Assembly: GCF_000002865.3 (NCBI RefSeq)
Contig: NW_001865051.1
Location: forward strand, 56,300 to 120,299
Length of the DNA stretch: 64,000 nucleotides
Source of the DNA: Monosiga brevicollis MX1
Lineage: Eukaryota; Opisthokonta; Choanoflagellata; Craspedida; Salpingoecidae
Reading direction: 5' to 3'
Made by a program: the position numbers and the translations under genes. The first letter of the stretch is position 1; the number at the start of each line of letters is the position of its first letter. Below, in pieces: positions 27,558 through 48,487 of this stretch. The notes beneath the pieces were generated by a model, which was not told the DNA's origin, did not search any database, and was given only the letters and a program-made list of their open reading frames with translations.

Positions 27558-28108
27558 CTTGGCACCTTGGCACTGCGTAGTAGCAAATCGTGAGAGGGTA
27601 TAACAACAACTGGAACCAAAGAGCCAGAGCCAGAGCCAGAGCCAGAGACAAATCCAGTCATGAACCCAGAGGCAGGGTCAGAAGGTCAGAAGCTGGCGCG
27701 TTCAAGTTAAGCACCAAAAAAAAAAAAGGAAAAAAAAAAAAAAAATGAGAGAGAAAAAAAAAAAAAAAAAGAGAGGGAAAGGTTTCAAAATCGTCACTGT
27801 CTTCGTCAGTTCATCACGCAATGTCAGCATTTCCTGCGCATGACGAGGTGAGCGAGTCAGAGAGAGAGAGAGAGATGATGCGGACCATGTGTGTGTGTGT
27901 GTGTGTGTGTGGACATGTGGCTGCCCGCCAATGGCTGGCTGGCTGGCTGGCTGCTTCCCGTGTGGGCTTTCGGTCTTGACTGCCATGGGGTTGGACATGC
28001 TGCTTGATAAGGATGAAGGCCGGTGGGTCTGATTGTGTTGCGTTGTGCTGGCTTGTGCGTATTGTTGGCTGCTGTAGGTAGATTTCTGGGTCGGAACAAT
28101 TTATCGCC
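27558..28108. promoter_or_regulatory. Divergent promoter region with several simple repeats
   Basis: 550 bases between the SKI7-like gene (-) and the aminotransferase-TtcA gene (+). Contents: an AGAGCC repeat near 27620, poly-A runs (27716-27770), (GA)n near 27857, (GT)n near 27890-27910 and a GGCT tetranucleotide array near 27930-27952. Confidence 0.55.
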
Positions 28109-31100
28109 ATGGCCGCGGTGAAGCAATGGTCCAATCTGCCGGCGGCAGCCCCGGGCCAGGGCGAGCCCTTGGCCGCGCACGCAGAATTTGAGGACCTCTG
28201 TACTATGATTGAGGAACAAACGTAGGTTTTGCCGCCAGGAACAAGCTGACGGCTGCTCGCTGGGTTGCTGCTCGATTTTCCTATGCTGATCACCAGCCTT
28301 ACCCGCGTGGCTCAATGTCGACACGTTCCCTCCAGGTATGGTCATACGGCGCTGGTGCAAACTCCTTATGGCACCCGTCCACTGGTGTACGCCGACTCGA
28401 CGGCTTCGGGCCGGAGCCTTGAAGCCATCGAGGGTTATCTGCAGAGCCACGTCATGCCCATGTACAGCAACACCCATACCACCTCCTCCGCCTGTGGCTT
28501 GCAAACCATGCAACTCGTGGAAGAAGCGCGTCAAATCATCAAGGACGCCCTTCGTGCCACAGATGAAGGTGCGCATCAGCTCTTGTTCGTGCACCTGCGT
28601 TTTTTGGAGCGACACCATCTTTACCCTTCCCTTCTCGGGGGGCCTTTTGCTCCTGCTCCGCCAACCCAATTTTGCATACGTGCTGACTTACTCGTTCACA
28701 CGCAGATGCCGTCATCTTCGCGGGCAGCGGGTCCACCGGTGCCATTAAAAAGTGCGCTGAAATTTTGGGCCTGGGTCTCTTTGCCACCAGCGCGCAAGGC
28801 CAGTACCTCTGTACCTTCCCTGGCTGTCATCGTCGTTTTCATGACGAAGCTGCTGTCACGGTGCGTTCCACGCCGTCGCGCTACAAGCACAAGTAATGTC
28901 TCTGGCCTTTTCAGTTGTCCGGAAACGTCCTTTGGTTTCTTCTCCCATCTCCCATCTCCCATCTCCCATCTCCCATCTCCCATCTCCCATCTCCCATCTC
29001 CCATCTCCCTTCTCCCATCTCCCATCTCCCATCTCCCATCTCCCATCACCGCCTGTTGCCCAATGTTGCCGCCTCACCAATCTGCCTGTCTCAACCCCCA
29101 AAGCTCCATGCTCGCACGCACGGTGATGGTGATTTTGCAGCGCGCAGCTGGCGCAAGGCGCATGGTGAAACCAATGCCGACCGAATCCAGCGCCAGACGC
29201 AGCCCCTTGTCCTGGTGGGCCCCATGGAGCACCATAGCAACTATTGCATCTGGAAGGAGAGTGGTGCACAGGTTCTTGAGGTGCCTCCGGGCCCTGATCA
29301 CCGCATCGACGCCGCCATCTTGGCTCAGCTCTTGGCCCAGCACGCCCCGCACCGTACCGTGGTGGCCGCCTTTAGCGCTGCGTCTAACGTGACTGGTCTC
29401 GAAGAAGACGTCTCGGCCATTACGCGTCTTGTCCACCAACACCATGCCATCGCTGTCTGGGACTGCGCTGCAAGTGCCCCCCACGCCCGGGTGGATCTCA
29501 ATCCGACAGACCCTGCCAGCCGACCCGACGCGGTTTTTATCAGCCCCCACAAATTTCCTGGTGGCCCCGACACACCAGGGCTTCTCTGCATCAAGAAGAA
29601 GCTGCTTTCCAATGCGGTGCCCTCCACCCCAGCCGGAGGCACTGTCTTTTACGTCTCTGGACATCAGCATCGGTGCGAAGCAAGCACTGGCTTTGTTTCG
29701 GGCCCTCTGTGGACGCTCGCACATTCATGCACGCCTTGGCACCCAAGTGACTCACTCTGGACCTTGTTGTAGGTACATGGAAAACTCGGAAGAGCGCGAG
29801 GAGGGGGGCACCCCCAATATTCTAGGCAACATTCGTTGCGGCCTCGTGTTTCGCCTACAAAAGGCGCTCGGCGTTGAGCGCATCGCGGCCCGTGAACAGG
29901 CGATGATGAGCACCATCATGAACCGTCTGGCTGCCGTGCCCAACCTGTGCGTGGCAGGCGGCGACACGCCTCAGCGTCTCCCGGTACGTGGTGGTTGTTT
30001 GGGACTGAGGGCCATCGCCAGGCATCAACTGCCGTGGTGCAGGGATTGCGCTTGCTGCTGGCATCTGATGGAAGCGGACGTGTCATGCAGATCCTCTCCT
30101 TTGGCATTCGCCATCCTCGCGATCATGGGCGCTTTCTGCACTGGAACTTCGCTTCGGCGTTACTCAACGACCTCTTTGGTGTTCAAGCCCGAGGCGGGTA
30201 CGATTCGCCCCACAGGACCGTGTTACCCATCACGCGTTTGCCTTTGCTCTTGTTCGTGCTCTGATCACCCGATGCTGTTGCCACATGGTCTCGCTTGGAC
30301 AGCTGCCTCTGCGCCGGTCCATATGCACACCGCCTGCTGGGTATTAGCCCCGAGGATGCGGTGCAGCTTGAGAATGCGCTTTTGGACAAGCGCGAAGTTT
30401 TGCGTCCTGGCTTTGTTCGCGTGTCCTTTTCCTTTCACTGGCCCGAGGCCAAGTTGGACTACGTACTGCAAGCCATCGAGTTTGTGGCACGACACGGCTA
30501 CCTCTTCTTGGATGACTACCTCTTTTATGTGGATACTGGTACGTGTGCTTCTCCATGAAGGCCTGCAGCGCTGCCGGCCACTGACGCGGCCCATGTTTGA
30601 TATCTAGGAGAGTATCGCCACCGCGCCTTCCGCAACAAAAGTCCACATCGCATGTGGCTCAGCGAGGCTGTATTCGGGAGCGCCGGCTTGAGTGCGCCCG
30701 TTCCACCACATGCTAGAGTAGAAGCCAAGTCCCTTTCAACGCCTCAAGAAGCCTTGGCGGCCGCACAGCAACTGGCCCAAGAGCGCCAGGTGTGTCAACG
30801 TAGCGGTGTAGTCTACCTTTATCTCGACCTTGCTTGACTTCATGCGGGGTGTCACATGTCTCACTCAATGCCACCGCACTGATGCTTTGTCTAGACGGCA
30901 ACGAACAGCACGGCCACGGATGCCGAGGCAATTTTGGGTTTGCCCGAGGGCCTTCGTCGTCTTGTCTGGTTCCAGGCGCAGGTATCACCGGCCGCCAGTC
31001 TCTCGAGTCGAACTGCAGGCCAGGCGGGAACCGGGGACAAGTCTTTGCAGTTGTTGGCGGATGCTGCTCCTCTCGATGCGGCGGCCTGGAATCAATCCAC

Positions 31101-32533
31101 AGCGCCGCTTTCTGAACCAACCGAGGCGAATCTGGACGCCGCGCCAGAAGCTGCGGCAGCACTGGATGGCGAGGATGGCCCGGTGCTAGCTTGCCCACTA
31201 GTTTTGATGCGCGGTCGCTTAGCGCCGCCTCCTTCGGCATTGCCACTTCCTGCTGAAGAGGATGAGGGCGAAGAGAACGACGAGGACGATGGTGACGCCG
31301 ATGAGCCCACGCACGCGACCATGTCACAGGCCGGGGGCAACATGGCGGGGACTGAGACTGCGGATGACGTGCTCTTTGACACGTCTGCGTTGGGCGGCGA
31401 GTCGGACGGAGAGGAAGAGGAGGCCGCGCCTGCTGCCGGCCCCACCTTCCATCGTCTGGCGTTGAAACCCAAGGTTCCGAAGAGCCTGCTGCGCACGGTG
31501 GGTGAAGCCATTCGCGACTACGACATGATTCAGGAGGGCGACCGAATCCTAGTGGGCTTGTCTGGTGGCAAAGATAGTTTGAGTTTGCTGCATTGCCTGT
31601 TGGCGCTGCAACGCAAGGCACCCGTGCGCTTTGAGGTGGGCGCGGTGACCATGAACCCCAATTTCCCGGGGTTTGACCCGCGCCCCTTGATCCCGTACCT
31701 AAAGGCCTTGGGGGTGCCTTATTTTTTCGAGTCACAAGATCTGCTAGCGCAAGCCCAGGACACGCAGCCCAGCTCCATCTGTTCATGGTGCGCGCGGATG
31801 AAGCGTAAGTCAAATCTCTGTCGCCGGTAACTATGCTGCTTGGAAGAGGGAGGGGTGTTTGGATTGTTTCGGGTTGGGCTTCAACGTGCTGTCACATGCT
31901 TATGTGGCTTGGGACCATGGCGCTGGTGTGCAGGGGGAATTCTGTATTCGTGCTTGCGTCGCGAGGGGTACAATGTTTTGGCATTGGGCCAGCACCTGGA
32001 TGACTTGGCCGAATCCTTTGTCATGAGCAGCTTCCACAATGGGCGCCTGCGGACCATGAAGGCCCACTACTGCAACGGAAAGGGGGATGTGCGCATCATT
32101 CGCCCCCTGGTGTACACGCGTGAGCGACAAACACGCACCTTTGCAGCCGAGTCCCACCTGCCCGTGATTCAAGACAATTGCCCAGCCTGCTTTGAGGAAC
32201 CCAAGGAGCGATACCGGGTCAAGACCCTCCTCGCCAACCAGGTGATTGCCACTTGCATTTGGGATCGCTTCGCCGCCGCTCTGTCCTGTCCTGGGGTGCA
32301 ACCTTTCTCAATCCACGACATTGTGGGCAATTCTGACCGCATTGGTTTGTTATTAGGAGCACCTGTACCCAAGTCTGTTCCGAATCCTGCTGCGTAGCAT
32401 GCGACCATTGATGCGGGACCACACGCTACCAGCCTGCGTGAGCGCCAGCAAGCTGGAGGAGATCAACGCGCGGGATGGGGAGCTCGTCTACCATGGACAG
32501 CGGCCGACCGAAGAAGAAGAGGGGGATGAATGA
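28109..32533 (+). CDS. Fusion of a class V aminotransferase/cysteine desulfurase-like domain and a TtcA-type PP-loop tRNA thiolation domain
   Basis: Eleven exons (28109-28221, 28336-28568, 28706-28892, 29148-29672, 29773-29983, 30091-30197, 30303-30538, 30608-30789, 30895-31804, 31934-32241, 32357-32533) join in frame to about 1062 residues. Residues 40-530 are a PLP class V fold: YADSTASGRS, FAGSGSTGAIKK, GPMEHHSN, the PLP-lysine segment SPHKFPGG (near residue 313) and GGCLCAGPYAHRLLG (near 460), a likely active-site cysteine loop. A Ser/Ala/acidic linker spans about 600-790. The C-terminal part has the ATP-binding LSGGKDSLSLLH (near 820), PGFDPRPLIPYL, CSWCARMKRGILY and NCPAC, the cysteines expected for the iron-sulfur site of TtcA, which makes 2-thiocytidine in bacterial tRNA. 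TtcA normally receives sulfur from a separate cysteine desulfurase, so donor and acceptor appear joined here. Exon 9 starts in phase and holds no internal start before the PP-loop, supporting one gene. Confidence 0.85.
28940..29047. repeat. (CTCCCAT)n heptamer array in intron 3 of the fusion gene
   Basis: About fifteen near-perfect copies of CTCCCAT, with one CCCTTCT variant. The minus strand reads (GGGAGAT)n, with regularly spaced G triplets able to form quadruplexes. It lies wholly inside an intron. Confidence 0.92.
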
Positions 32534-32932
32534 TGAAGCCACCCATCAGCTCAAACAGTCTGTACCAATGCCAACCCCTTGCAAACCCATAACAGAACAC
32601 CAACCCGTGCGCCCCGCGCCCTGCCCTGCTGCTTATAGAGAACTTCTTGACGTGTTGCCCAACAAATTCATTCATCAATCAGAAACTAGAAAATCTGACA
32701 TTCAGAGAGATCAAAACGCTTTCATCCTCCAAAAAACAAAAACAACAACAAGATGGTGGTGGTGGTAGGAAAAAGTCAGAACCATAGACATCAACAAAAA
32801 AACATTGACATGTGCTCGCTGTCTCTTTGGTCTCTGTCTCTTTGGTCTCTGTCTCTGTCTCTCTCTCTATCTCTGTCTCTGTCTCTGTCTCTCTCTCTAT
32901 CTCTGCTCTGTCTCTCTCTGTCTCTCTCTGTC

Positions 32933-32971
<39 letters not shown>

Positions 32972-32972
32972 G

Positions 32973-33015
<43 letters not shown>

Positions 33016-33216
33016 GTCTCTCTGTCTCTCTCTCTGTGACCATCTTGCACGTTCTTATTCCTTCAGTTTGCAAATCAAGGGCAGCGGGTGAGGCAGTTGC
33101 TCGGACGGCCAGCGATCGGGGCTGTTGGGTACTGTGCTGGCATTCACAATAAAAATCGGCTGGCTCGCGTGATCATCAGGGCGAGAGTTTGCACCGATCC
33201 AAGGCAACCCAGCATC
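32534..33216. other. Intergenic region with a TCTCTG-type repeat
   Basis: The 3' flank of the fusion gene and 5' flank of the transporter gene. A complex (TCTCTG/TC)n array occupies about 32818-33038 and produces long Ser/Leu frames on plus and Arg/Glu frames on minus, none of them coding. Confidence 0.75.
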
Positions 33217-36200
33217 ATGCAGGAAGTTGCACCGGCCCAGGTCGGTCTGGTCGACCCCCTCCCCGCTCGCCTCCCTTCCTTGATGCCTTGCGCGGGTTGT
33301 GATCAATCCAAGGGCGCAAAGGCCTGCATCGACCCTCCTAACATCTCGTGCATCACGGCAATTTTGATTTAGTCGCCGCCATGGTACAAGTCATCGCGTT
33401 ATTTCATTGCCGTCATGGCGTTTCTTGGCTTCCTCAACGTCTACGCCCTCCGCGTCAATCTAAGGTATGTGGCTCGCCTGTCATCACGGACCGCTTGATG
33501 CCAGTCCAGCCTCATGATTGTGCGGTGTTACCCGTGGCTGCCCTGGCTGAACTAGCGTTGCAGCCGTCAAGATGGCTGATCAGTACAACTGGTCACAAAC
33601 GGAAAAAGGTCCGCAATGCGTCGATGCGTGCTTGGCTCCGGCCAGAGGGCGCGCTGGTCATGGTCCTGCTGGTCGACCTTCTTGATCTCACCCTCGATGT
33701 TCATGCCCGTCCCGCAGCGCTGATCCTTTCCTCATTCTTTTATGGTTACATTGCCACCCAAAGTATGACCCCGTTTGTTCGTTTGCCCGTCCACCTGAGC
33801 CCTCACCAGACAACAGCAACTTTTTTTTTTCTTCCGCCTGCGTCATATCTGGCTCACCAATCTTGTTGTGCTCACCCGCAGTCCCGGGGGGTTGGGTCGC
33901 CACACGACTCGGTGGGAAGTGGGTCTTTGGCTTGGGTGTCTTTGTGACGGCAGCCATGACGTTACTGACCCCCGTCGTGGCTGCCCACAAGGGCCTGCTT
34001 CTGGCCGTCCGTGTTCTCGAGGGCATCGGCGAAGGAGGAACCTTCCCCGCCATGCATGCCATGCTGTCCCGCTGGGCCCCGCCAGCCGAGCGCTCCCGCC
34101 TCGCCACCATTTGTTACGCAGGTATGGTCGACGGTATCCTCTGCAATTCGTCGCCACACCGGCAGATGCTCCTTCGTTCTGACAAACGTACGTGGCTCGT
34201 GGCCTGGCAGGATCATACTTTGGTACCGTGGTGTCGCTTCCCATCTCTGGCGTTCTTGCTTCGGGCGATTTTCTGGGGGGCTGGCCCTCTGTGTTTTACG
34301 TCTTTGGCACGCTTGGTGTTCTTTGGTTCATTGCGTGGGTTATGACAACCTCCAACAACCCCGAATCGTGAGTGTCCTGTCATTTCCTCTTGCACCCCAG
34401 GTCCCAATGCGCGAGGTGGGGAGCGAGAGAGAGGAAGAGGAAGAGGAAGAGGAAGAGGAAGAGGAAGAGGAAGAGGAAACAGACAGGCGCCGGGGTTTGA
34501 CTCACGTGGCGGTGGCTCACAACACCATTCGCCGTTGCTCATGGATAGGCATCGCTGGATCAAGCCGGAAGAGTTGCGATTTATCCAAGAGAGCATGGCC
34601 AATCAGTCTTCCCCTGAAAAGCCCCCACCAACGCCGTGGCTCCCCATCCTGTCCTCAAGCGCGGTGTGGGCCATCATTGTGGCTCATACCTGCCAAAATT
34701 GGGGCTTTTACACCCTCCTTACCTGCCTTCCCACGTACTTTAACGACGTCCTTCGCTTCAACATTGAATCGGTCCGCACGTGTCTTCCCAACGCCATGCG
34801 CTAAGCGCTCCTATCAAAAGCAACAGAACCTGGACACTGATATTTGGCTGCTCTGGGTGCTGGCTCCCTCCATCATATGCTTAGGGTGGCATCAATGCGG
34901 CATACCCCTATTTGGCCTTGTTCCTCTTGACCATTGGCATCGGCCAGGTGGCCGATCATTTACGTAGCCGTTTCTCGACCGTATTTGGTTCGTCATGGCA
35001 GCCGCTATCGCTTGCATATGACCAGTCTCTTTAAATAACTGCAAAAAAAAAAAAAAAAAGTTAGAGGCAGTAAAGCTCATTTTGGTTCTCCGCTCTGCCT
35101 TCTTAGTGCGCAAGCTCCTGAACACCACCGGTTACGTGATCGGCATCACTTTTTTGGTGCTTGCCGGTTTTGTCAAACCAGGCCAAGTGCGCACTCTTTG
35201 CTGCGCCCACCATGCTTGTTCTCAAGCCAACTTTCTTGGTGGCCTCTAACCACCTGTTTCTGTCATGGTGGAAATTTTGCGATGTGTTATTTGACCCGCC
35301 CGTGAACATAGAATGCGCTTGCAGTGACCTACCTCACGCTCAGCGTGGGCTCGGGTGGCTTTGTGCAAAGCGGTTTCAACATCAACCACCTCGACATTTC
35401 TCCTCGATATGCCGGTCTGTGGTTTGCGTGACGCCCGTTTTAGTCAACGCCAGCCTTGAGAATAGTCCCTGCGCGCCCCCGCCTCACTTCTTTTCCGCTC
35501 AGGCGTGCTGATGGGCCTGACCAACTGCGCCGGAACTATTCCCGGTTTTGTGGGCCCCACCGTCGCCGGCATCTTGGCCCCTTGGTATGGCACACACGAT
35601 TCCATTGTTGGTGACAATGTTGCTATTGGTGCTTGCACGCATCTGATGCAATGTGCCCGGCTCGGTGTTTGTTGTGCATAGTGCGCTCTGCGACAAGACA
35701 ATCAATGTGGATGGATACTGTGTGGCCGACACTTACTGGGAGGGACCCGGCCAGTGCCCTCCCAACACAACAGACGTGCCCTGCCATACGTATCTGAGTG
35801 CGCTGGACGATTCGCTGCCGGCTGATGTCCAGGCCTTTATTGACGGTATCGAGACGGCCAAGACCACCACGAGCCCAGGCACCCACAACTCATCGCTGCC
35901 GGCCAAGATTGGGAACTACAAGCGCTGCTCCCAGCACATAGCCCAAGTCCAATGGCGGTGCGTTTGCCATGGGCGAAAGAGCTCGAGTGCTACGTGTCCA
36001 AGACCTCACATTCTACCCCTTGTACCCATACAGGAACGTGTTCTATCTTTCAGCGTCCATCTTCGCCTTTGGAGCGCTCGTGTTCCTCGTCCTCGCCAAG
36101 GGCACAGTACAGGTCAGCAACCTTGACGCGCAGCTCTCTTGTAGCAGCACTCAACTCTCACAAATCACGGGCTTGTTTGTGCGCCTTCCCGTGCTGATTC

Positions 36201-46491: not shown

Positions 46492-48487
46492 ATGACGGGG
46501 CAGGTTCGCGCTCAACATGCCTTCCGCCGCTTACGCTGGCGGCCTGTAACCTATGGTAGCACCGCCGTCGCCAGCCTCGTCGGCTACAACTTTATGATGA
46601 GCGACGAGGGTGACGCCGTCTCTGGCACGCCCATCCTCGACCCGGCCATCATGGATACCGCCCTGGCTGCCATTGCCACGGCCCGCGCCGTATATCGCCC
46701 CAAAGTCATGCAACAAACCGACGTCGAATGGTTTCTTCCCGTCCTCAGCCAGCGCAACGTGACCCGCTTCCGGGTCCTCCACTTCCACCCGGCGCCGGGC
46801 AACTCTTTTCGCAACGAAAATGGCCTGGCCTGCCATCATTGCGGCTCCACCTTTATGATTGCCTCCCTTACTTCTGGCTCCTCGACCCTCCGTGAGCGCA
46901 TTGCCCTCGTCTCCTCCTCCAAGCTCAGCCGCTATCATTGCTCGGCCTGCTACCACTCGGTCTGCGGCGCCTGCTCCGGGATGAACGAAAAGCTCCGCGT
47001 CTGCTCTGCTTGTCAAAAGCTGCGTCCCGCCGCTCGTTCAGAGGTCAGTCCACACTCCACTCGCCAGCTCTTTTCAAGTTGCCCCCACTTTGTCGTTTTT
47101 GGTTTTTGTTTTCTTGTTTTTTTCCTCCTCCACCTTGCTCCCATTTCTCCCGTGTCTGAACCCCTTGGTCATCTCAGCTTTGGTCTTCACGAACCCCGTT
47201 TAGATTCAATATGGTGTCATGCGACTGCATGAACAACGCGCCATTGTGGTCTCGTTTCGTGGCACCAAAACGCGAGCCGACATTGCCATTGATGCCAAAA
47301 CCAAACCCAAGGATCTTCTGGCTTTGGCGCACAGCTGGGGCTTCACGGTGCCTTCAGCTGCCAGCGACACGCCCACCGAGCCGGCCAATCAACCCATATT
47401 TTCACGCGCACCACTCAGCCCCTACCCCGTTTTTTCTGGCTCCGTCATGAACCCCACCCCCACCAACTCTGCAAGTGCCGTGCCCCCCCGACCGCCGCCA
47501 CCCCACACCAACCCGCACAACCCCGTCCGCCCCTCGCTACTTGTCCATGGCGGCGTAGTGGACCAGATTGCTCTCTGCTACGACAGCATCAAACGCCACA
47601 TCCTTGAGGAGCTAGGCAAGGTGGAGAATCGACGCCTGCGCCTGGTGCTGTGTGGCCATTCGCTCGGTGGCGGCTACGCCTCGGCCTTTGTTCTTCTAGC
47701 CCTTATGGACCCTGAGTTGCGGCCCGTCATGCTCAAGCACGACTTTCAAGTCCTGACTTTTGGTAGCCCGCGCATTCTCTTCCGTGATCACTCGCTCGAG
47801 CAGGGACTGGATGCCATTGCTTCTGCGCAAGGTTCCTCTCGAGCCGGCACCTCGGATCAGACTTACTCGGGTGCCGCTCACCCCTTTTTCGAGCGCCACT
47901 TCACCTCCTGGGTCAACGAGGAGGACATTGTACCACGATTGCTCGGCAATAGCGTCCGAGGCCTGGGCGTGGCCCAGAGCGTGCTGAAGCAGGTCGCCAA
48001 CAGCCTCATGTCCCTGCAAGTGCATGCCGACGAGCTTGAGGATAATCTCGAGCATTTTGAGCACGTTGGCCGCGTCGTAGCCCTGTCTGGGACCGGTGAT
48101 TGTCGAGACATTGATGCTGCGCTGACGGATGACTTCTTCTCCATGCGAGGCCTGGTGTACAAGTCGGCGATTGCAGCCCACATGACGGCCGAGTACGAAC
48201 GTCGCATTGCCACTGCCTTTGGCCGCTTGACCGGCATGCCTCTCTTGGCGGCCGAGGCCGAGCCTGGCCCAGCAGCAGCCGAGCAGGTCGCACATGGCCC
48301 CGAGCACCGCCTGCTCATGGTTGAACGTGACGTGGCCGAGAGTGTGGGAGCCACCTCTTCCCTGGCCCTGTCGCGCACGTCAACTGATCGCCTGGACGAC
48401 CTGGCACTGGACGAGTCCACCAACGGTTCTGTGGCTGAGGAGATGGTGCAAGCTCGTGGCTTTGTCGTGATGGAGGGACTCACGTAG
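46492..48487 (+). CDS. Class 3 lipase with N-terminal FYVE-like zinc finger
   Basis: Two exons (46492-47043 and 47204-48487) give 611 residues. Around residues 112-180 is a cysteine-rich module: CHHCGSTF, RYHCSACYHSVCGACSG and LRVCSACQK. This is the spacing of a FYVE-type zinc-binding fold (CxxC, HCxxC, VCxxC, CxxC) with a degenerate basic patch. The lipase part follows: RAIVVSFRGT at the start of exon 2, a Pro-rich insertion, the nucleophile elbow VLCGHSLGGGYA with the catalytic Ser, VLTFGSPRIL, and NEEDIVPRLLG, the usual place of the catalytic Asp. The third catalytic residue, His, is not certain. Family lipases cleave acyl esters such as diacylglycerol. A FYVE-like finger would suggest action on endosomal membranes, by inference. 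The start ATG has good context (gcccATGa). Confidence 0.85.

Follow-up and report, generated by a model that had tools for sequence, protein, structure and literature searches.

TtcA makes 2-thiocytidine at position 32 (s2C32) of transfer RNA (tRNA) and depends on a [4Fe-4S] cluster bound by CxxC cysteines, according to two reports (PMC6082896, PMC5372739). In E. coli, sulfur reaches TtcA by a relay that starts at the desulfurase IscS and passes through IscU and iron-sulfur (Fe-S) assembly (PMC2854127, PMC8300815, PMC7694415). The union of a desulfurase and a sulfur acceptor in one protein is also on record, in the desulfurase-rhodanese chimeras reported in PMC8931425. Here, we analyze a gene of the choanoflagellate Monosiga brevicollis MX1 that makes a similar union, except that the presumed acceptor is a PP-loop thiolase instead of a rhodanese domain. 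It occupies positions 28109-32533 of the plus strand in a 64,000-nucleotide stretch of contig NW_001865051.1 (the window), and all its features given below are on this strand. A description of the gene from its letters alone (the sequence-only reading) had taken bacterial TtcA to receive its sulfur from a separate desulfurase such as IscS; IscS is indeed in the route, but acts indirectly, by way of IscU and Fe-S assembly.

The gene has 11 exons separated by 10 GT-AG introns, whose in-phase joins give a single protein of 1066 residues. Homology across the exon junctions places the exons at 28109-28221, 28336-28568, 28706-28860, 29104-29672, 29773-29983, 30091-30197, 30303-30538, 30608-30789, 30895-31804, 31934-32241 and 32357-32533. 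The ATG start has an in-frame stop 30 bases ahead, at 28079, and the only stop codon of the reading frame is at 32531-32533. Intron lengths are 69-243 nt, vs. 59-297 nt in our first, uncorrected model of 1064 residues; the relatives search and the Pfam and NCBIfam scores reported here were obtained with that first model. Relatives align over nearly the full length (55% identity over 97% for P0001; 46% over 96% for P0003) and several are single open reading frames (ORFs) labelled complete by their source, which argues that the reading is not due to chance. As judged from sequence, the desulfurase/TtcA-like fusion gene is real and is predicted to encode one chain. Eleven exons joined in phase, with donor-like and acceptor-like domains in one polypeptide, had been proposed in the sequence-only reading; this stands, with all the motifs it quoted and with the class V domain, linker and PP-loop domain in a single frame, but two acceptors needed correction.

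Comparison with relatives moved the acceptor of exon 4 to 29104, instead of 29141 or 29158. Starting the exon at 29104 restores a C2H2 zinc finger (CTFPGC...LHARTH), as in the closest relatives. Joining the end of exon 3 at 28860 to 29141 breaks the frame and introduces 26 stops, while acceptor 29158, or a weak donor at 28864 used with 29141, stays in frame but loses the finger histidines. The acceptor of exon 6 was moved to 30091; the alternative at 30043 is also in frame, but adds 16 residues that are absent from the compared relatives.

The desulfurase half, spread over exons 2-7 (28336-30538), is an aminotransferase class V domain of the SufS-like, cysteine desulfurase-like type. Lys317, the pyridoxal phosphate (PLP)-binding residue in SPHKFPGG (29551-29553), aligns with SufS K226, and Cys466 in the Cys464-x-Cys466 pair (30304-30312) aligns with SufS C364. 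The sequence-only reading had made its case depend on the catalytic Lys and Cys surviving correct splicing, and both are kept in the corrected model. Nine of 16 compared SufS positions are identical, among them H123, D200, K226, R359, C364 and R379, which we take to be catalytic positions of SufS. The half matches the SufS fold, is 28% identical to E. coli SufS and scores 111.6 bits against a curated NCBIfam SufS cut-off of 475.1; the Foldseek and VIA matches listed concern this domain and carry no information on the PP-loop half. Compared to SufS/CsdA-type enzymes, the window protein has a CxC loop, a longer insert after the CxC, a zinc finger and a fused partner. The finger (C151-x4-C156-x12-H169-x3-H173; 28810-29121) is inserted in the class V domain and split by intron 3; it was overlooked in the sequence-only reading, which otherwise named the class V and TtcA domains correctly. 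Intron 3 also contains a minisatellite of the 7-base unit TCTCCCA at 28941-29047 (15.3 copies, 98% matches).

The two halves are connected by a linker (residues 625-789; 30961-31455) that starts with an LxWF motif and has 33 Asp or Glu and 5 Lys or Arg among its 165 residues. The corresponding stretch of a Salpingoeca rosetta structure model (661-795) has a predicted local distance difference test (pLDDT) score below 50. The TtcA-like PP-loop domain follows in exons 9-11, with approximate limits 31456-32419 (PF01171, 53.5 vs. 27 bits). It shares with E. coli TtcA both the SGGKDS motif (residues 825-830; 31561-31578) and two CxxC motifs, Cys898/Cys901 (31780-31791) and Cys988/Cys991 (32179-32190), which align with C122/C125 and C210/C213, respectively. 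An Fe-S cluster had been suggested from these cysteines, and the retention of both pairs is compatible with one. TtcA is the top NCBIfam model for this half (211.8 bits, vs. 61.8 for TilS, 36.6 for TtuA and 22.1 for NcsA); profile matches were also found to TtuA (6.3e-14), U34 thiolase (1.8e-13) and TilS (3.8e-07). Neither curated cut-off (272 for TtcA, 475.1 for SufS) is reached, and we therefore call the halves TtcA-like and SufS-like, rather than TtcA or SufS.

On balance, we lean towards a function as a single-chain cysteine-to-RNA sulfur transferase, acting most likely on C32 of some cytosolic tRNAs to form 2-thiocytidine. In such a pathway, the SufS-like domain, with PLP on Lys317, would transfer sulfur from L-cysteine to Cys466, and the persulfide would perhaps be handed to Cys464 in the same CxC loop. 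The TtcA-like domain would bind ATP at SGGKDS and activate the base, with an Fe-S cluster held by cysteines among 898, 901, 988 and 991, and the linked desulfurase would be the source of the sulfur put on the base. Desulfuration, ATP use and the cluster are predicted from what is known of the families. The direct channelling of persulfide to tRNA that the sequence-only reading put forward is likewise a prediction. We infer the passage of sulfur between domains, the cytosolic location and the C32 tRNA target, the first and last of these being the least certain parts of the proposal.

The first protein model, used as query, recovered 331 proteins at E <= 0.001 among 7988 scored candidates, and PF00266 and PF01171 are both present in all of the 120 that were listed. 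The sequence-only reading had advised looking for this architecture in protists; the family occurs there and extends well into the animals. Protists with the fusion include oomycetes (Saprolegnia, Achlya, Thraustotheca), ciliates (Blepharisma, Stentor), Acrasis, Vitrella, Plasmodiophora and Chrysochromulina; the animals include lancelets, an acorn worm, a starfish, corals, molluscs, ticks, tardigrades, a springtail, a mayfly, leafhoppers and a mantis shrimp. In the 121 fused sequences formed by the listed relatives and the window protein, the PLP lysine pattern occurs in 120, the CxC loop in 119, SGGKDS in 120, the first CxxC in 121 and the second in 120, and the desulfurase precedes the PP-loop in 120. 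The finger pattern is found in 24 of the 105 sequences that could be anchored and is missing in 81, the remaining 16 of the 121 lacking an anchor. None of the relatives listed is the window protein itself: the best identity is 55% over the whole length and 69% for the PP-loop half, and the best-matching named organism is S. rosetta, although two EukProt transcriptome ORFs match better.

The architecture is already visible in public databases and the gene is not unique: the S. rosetta 'PP-loop domain-containing protein' and JGI entries labelled 'selenocysteine lyase/cysteine desulfurase/tRNA(Ile)-lysidine synthase TilS/MesJ' contain the same two Pfam domains in the same order, with listed identities to the window protein of 34-75%, often over partial length. 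P0092 and P0106 carry an additional C-terminal thioredoxin domain and were counted in favor of the proposed function. No description of the fusion was found among the titles and abstract starts listed from the open-licence literature, and the main texts of two papers on choanoflagellate gene transfer (PMC4046809, PMC7971027) do not mention desulfurase, TtcA, thiocytidine, aminotransferase or PP-loop. It is possible, though we hold it only tentatively, that the family represents a widespread and overlooked eukaryotic RNA thiolation enzyme, carrying cysteine sulfur to s2C in cytosolic tRNA without an NFS1/ISC or URM1 relay. If so, s2C would join the eukaryotic tRNA repertoire, and the desulfurase would link cysteine supply directly to the decoding of Arg and Ser codons. 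A widely kept eukaryotic TtcA-like enzyme predicts s2C in the tRNA of choanoflagellates, corals, ticks and tardigrades. In RNA modification, sulfur usually passes along several proteins, and a chain containing both donor and acceptor would offer a ready system for the study of this transfer.

Stand-alone relatives of each half were found in bacteria. Among stand-alone PP-loop proteins, the nearest are TtcA-like, with 61-69% identity to the PP-loop half in the 120 matches listed, and those matches that bear an organism name come from gamma- or sulfur-oxidising proteobacteria. The window PP-loop half differs from TtcA in being fused to its presumed donor, and falls with stand-alone TtcA-like proteins whose second motif is of the NCPAC type, many of them from proteobacteria with sulfur-oxidiser names. 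In a scan of prokaryotic genomes, the 80 best of 584 confirmed relatives are proteobacterial loci. In all 80, the match lies in the PP-loop, at 46-61% identity to the PP-loop half of S. rosetta; no desulfurase domain was detected in these loci, save one 38-residue match (E 0.001, L058). We make no claim of a prokaryote-wide absence of the fusion, the scan being of the best 80 of 584. Among viral contigs, none of 40 pattern matches was confirmed. For the other half, a Gemmatimonadales class V protein without a PP-loop (P0218) is 45% identical to the window desulfurase domain and has the same CxC loop. The 120 stand-alone class V relatives listed, from bacteria and oomycetes, are 466-809 residues long, show an LRWF motif in 90 cases and are listed with PF00266 alone, or in a few cases also PF00155; the finger pattern was seen in none of the 113 of them that could be anchored.

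Several points weigh against the C32 thiolation proposed above. Three papers (PMC7694415, PMC6082896, PMC5372739) ascribe s2C to archaea and bacteria, and another takes its presence in a eukaryotic sample as a sign of contaminating bacteria (PMC6356711). The PP-loop half falls short of the curated TtcA cut-off (211.8 vs. 272) and shares 33% identity with E. coli TtcA, suggesting that its substrate could differ. Seven of the 16 compared SufS positions differ (R56, R92, E96, N99, Q203, E250, S254), so that contacts with partners and within the dimer may not be those of SufS. The S. rosetta model (mean pLDDT 71.6, predicted template modelling score 0.58) contains no reliable inter-domain contact. 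Lastly, the desulfurase query had no match at E <= 1e-30 in any of 40 genomes that carry the TtcA-like gene (40 of the 80 loci), and 15 desulfurase neighbourhoods (from 15 of 17 genomes) contained no PP-loop match at E <= 0.01. The desulfurase query, again at E <= 1e-30, detected a relative in 17 of 299 Pseudomonadota genomes, providing a positive control for the null result in the 40 genomes. An operon joining both halves is thus unsupported in the genomes examined (0/40 and 0/15). As to the literature, s2C was not quantifiable in several eukaryote samples (PMC6356711); PMC9695239 calls it 'bacterial and archaeal' in its text and lists 'Bacteria, eukaryotes' in its table, and the main text of a coconut tRNA survey (PMC10298058) mentions 2-thiocytidine solely as a purchased standard. 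The TtcA cut-off is also missed by two stand-alone relatives (215.5 and 211.9) and by the Saprolegnia fusion (206.2).

The best-surviving alternative, which we nonetheless consider unlikely, keeps the same single-chain sulfur transfer but directs it elsewhere, to another position in tRNA or to an RNA of another kind, with the finger and linker perhaps setting specificity. The missed TtcA cut-off fits this explanation, as do the greater identity of the PP-loop half to a stand-alone bacterial TtcA-like protein than to E. coli TtcA (51% vs. 33%) and the occurrence of the finger pattern in 24 of 105 anchored fusions. However, TtcA leads the other NCBIfam models by a wide margin, and no second TtcA match was found beside the TtcA-like gene in the 24 bacteria searched: the E. 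coli TtcA query gave one match in each of these genomes (24/24, E <= 1e-15), and in all five compared by coordinates this was the TtcA-like gene itself, as expected if that gene fills the TtcA role.

A second alternative, less probable again, is that the chief role of the desulfurase is to assemble or repair the Fe-S cluster in the PP-loop half, or to couple thiolation to cysteine supply, and that the thiolating sulfur arrives by the general NFS1 route. The passage of the E. coli TtcA route through IscS-IscU and Fe-S assembly (PMC2854127, PMC8300815) is in line with this idea, as is the presence of an IscS-type gene in the host genome, at C25. In addition, an Lrp/AsnC-like gene adjoins the bacterial desulfurase relative in 11 of 15 loci (L107-L121, by tblastn; two of the 11 confirmed with Pfam), which suggests regulation by an amino acid that may be cysteine; this neighbour also fits the amino-acid substrate of the single-chain transferase favored above. 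Against it, the donor has been retained in the same chain across many eukaryotes, most simply as a sulfur source. Finally, it is very improbable that two genes were wrongly joined by the model, for example with an internal exon 9 start yielding a separate TtcA-like protein: the exon, earlier said to have no start codon of its own, does contain four in-frame ATGs ahead of SGGKDS (31207, 31321, 31342, 31525), but it is in phase with exon 8, as that earlier description held, and directly upstream of the exon its frame runs into a stop, the TAG of the acceptor at 30892. The two domains also share one transcriptome ORF in P0001 and in four relatives labelled type:complete (P0002, P0004, P0005, P0007). 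No AATAAA or ATTAAA lies between the halves, the sole one being at 28744, and none is found within 500 bases after the gene's own stop either, so that their absence between the halves carries no weight.

Trees were built for each half of the putative sulfur transferase. The PP-loop tree contained 119 of the 120 listed fusions, the window protein, 79 of the 80 bacterial loci and E. coli TtcA. The 79 bacterial sequences group together (support 0.979), but E. coli TtcA has a long branch and falls among the fusions, leaving the tree without a fixed root. The desulfurase tree contained 118 of 120 fusions, the window protein, 119 of 120 stand-alones, 15 proteobacterial sequences and SufS, with P0020, P0104 and P0201 left out for want of the loop pattern. 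Fusions and stand-alones are mixed in it, with a backbone support of 0.0, and a single origin of the finger was not seen. From these trees, we do not claim that the fusion arose once, or that genes were transferred in a given direction; the distribution of the sequences suggests that the two parts may have been brought together in eukaryotes.

The host genome (39.47 Mb in 57 contigs) was scanned for paralogues. The E. coli TtcA query matched two places, the window gene and contig C33, where desulfurase matches at 106850-108387 are followed by PP-loop matches at 109837-110922. The desulfurase part on C33 (L007) is without the finger, keeps HKFPGG and RGGCAC, and has its top scores with coral and lancelet proteins among seven references. 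The PP-loop part is known from match coordinates alone, and one of its matches crosses three stop codons, which may be introns. From these matches, C33:106850-110922 is likely to be a second, animal-like desulfurase/PP-loop fusion, and an intact gene. Two further desulfurase paralogues, at C31:80030-81447 (L004) and C49:357484-359038 (L005), match the Gemmatimonadales enzyme best among the seven references; no PP-loop match was detected on contigs C31 and C49.

Downstream of the fusion gene, a simple repeat rich in TC starts less than 300 bases past the stop codon and is about 220 bases long (32815-33035). It is followed on the plus strand by an open frame with a weak major facilitator superfamily match at 34183-34371 (24 bits, below cut-off). 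Further along the same strand, the open frame at 47219-48487 is class 3 lipase-like (PF01764, 50 bits).

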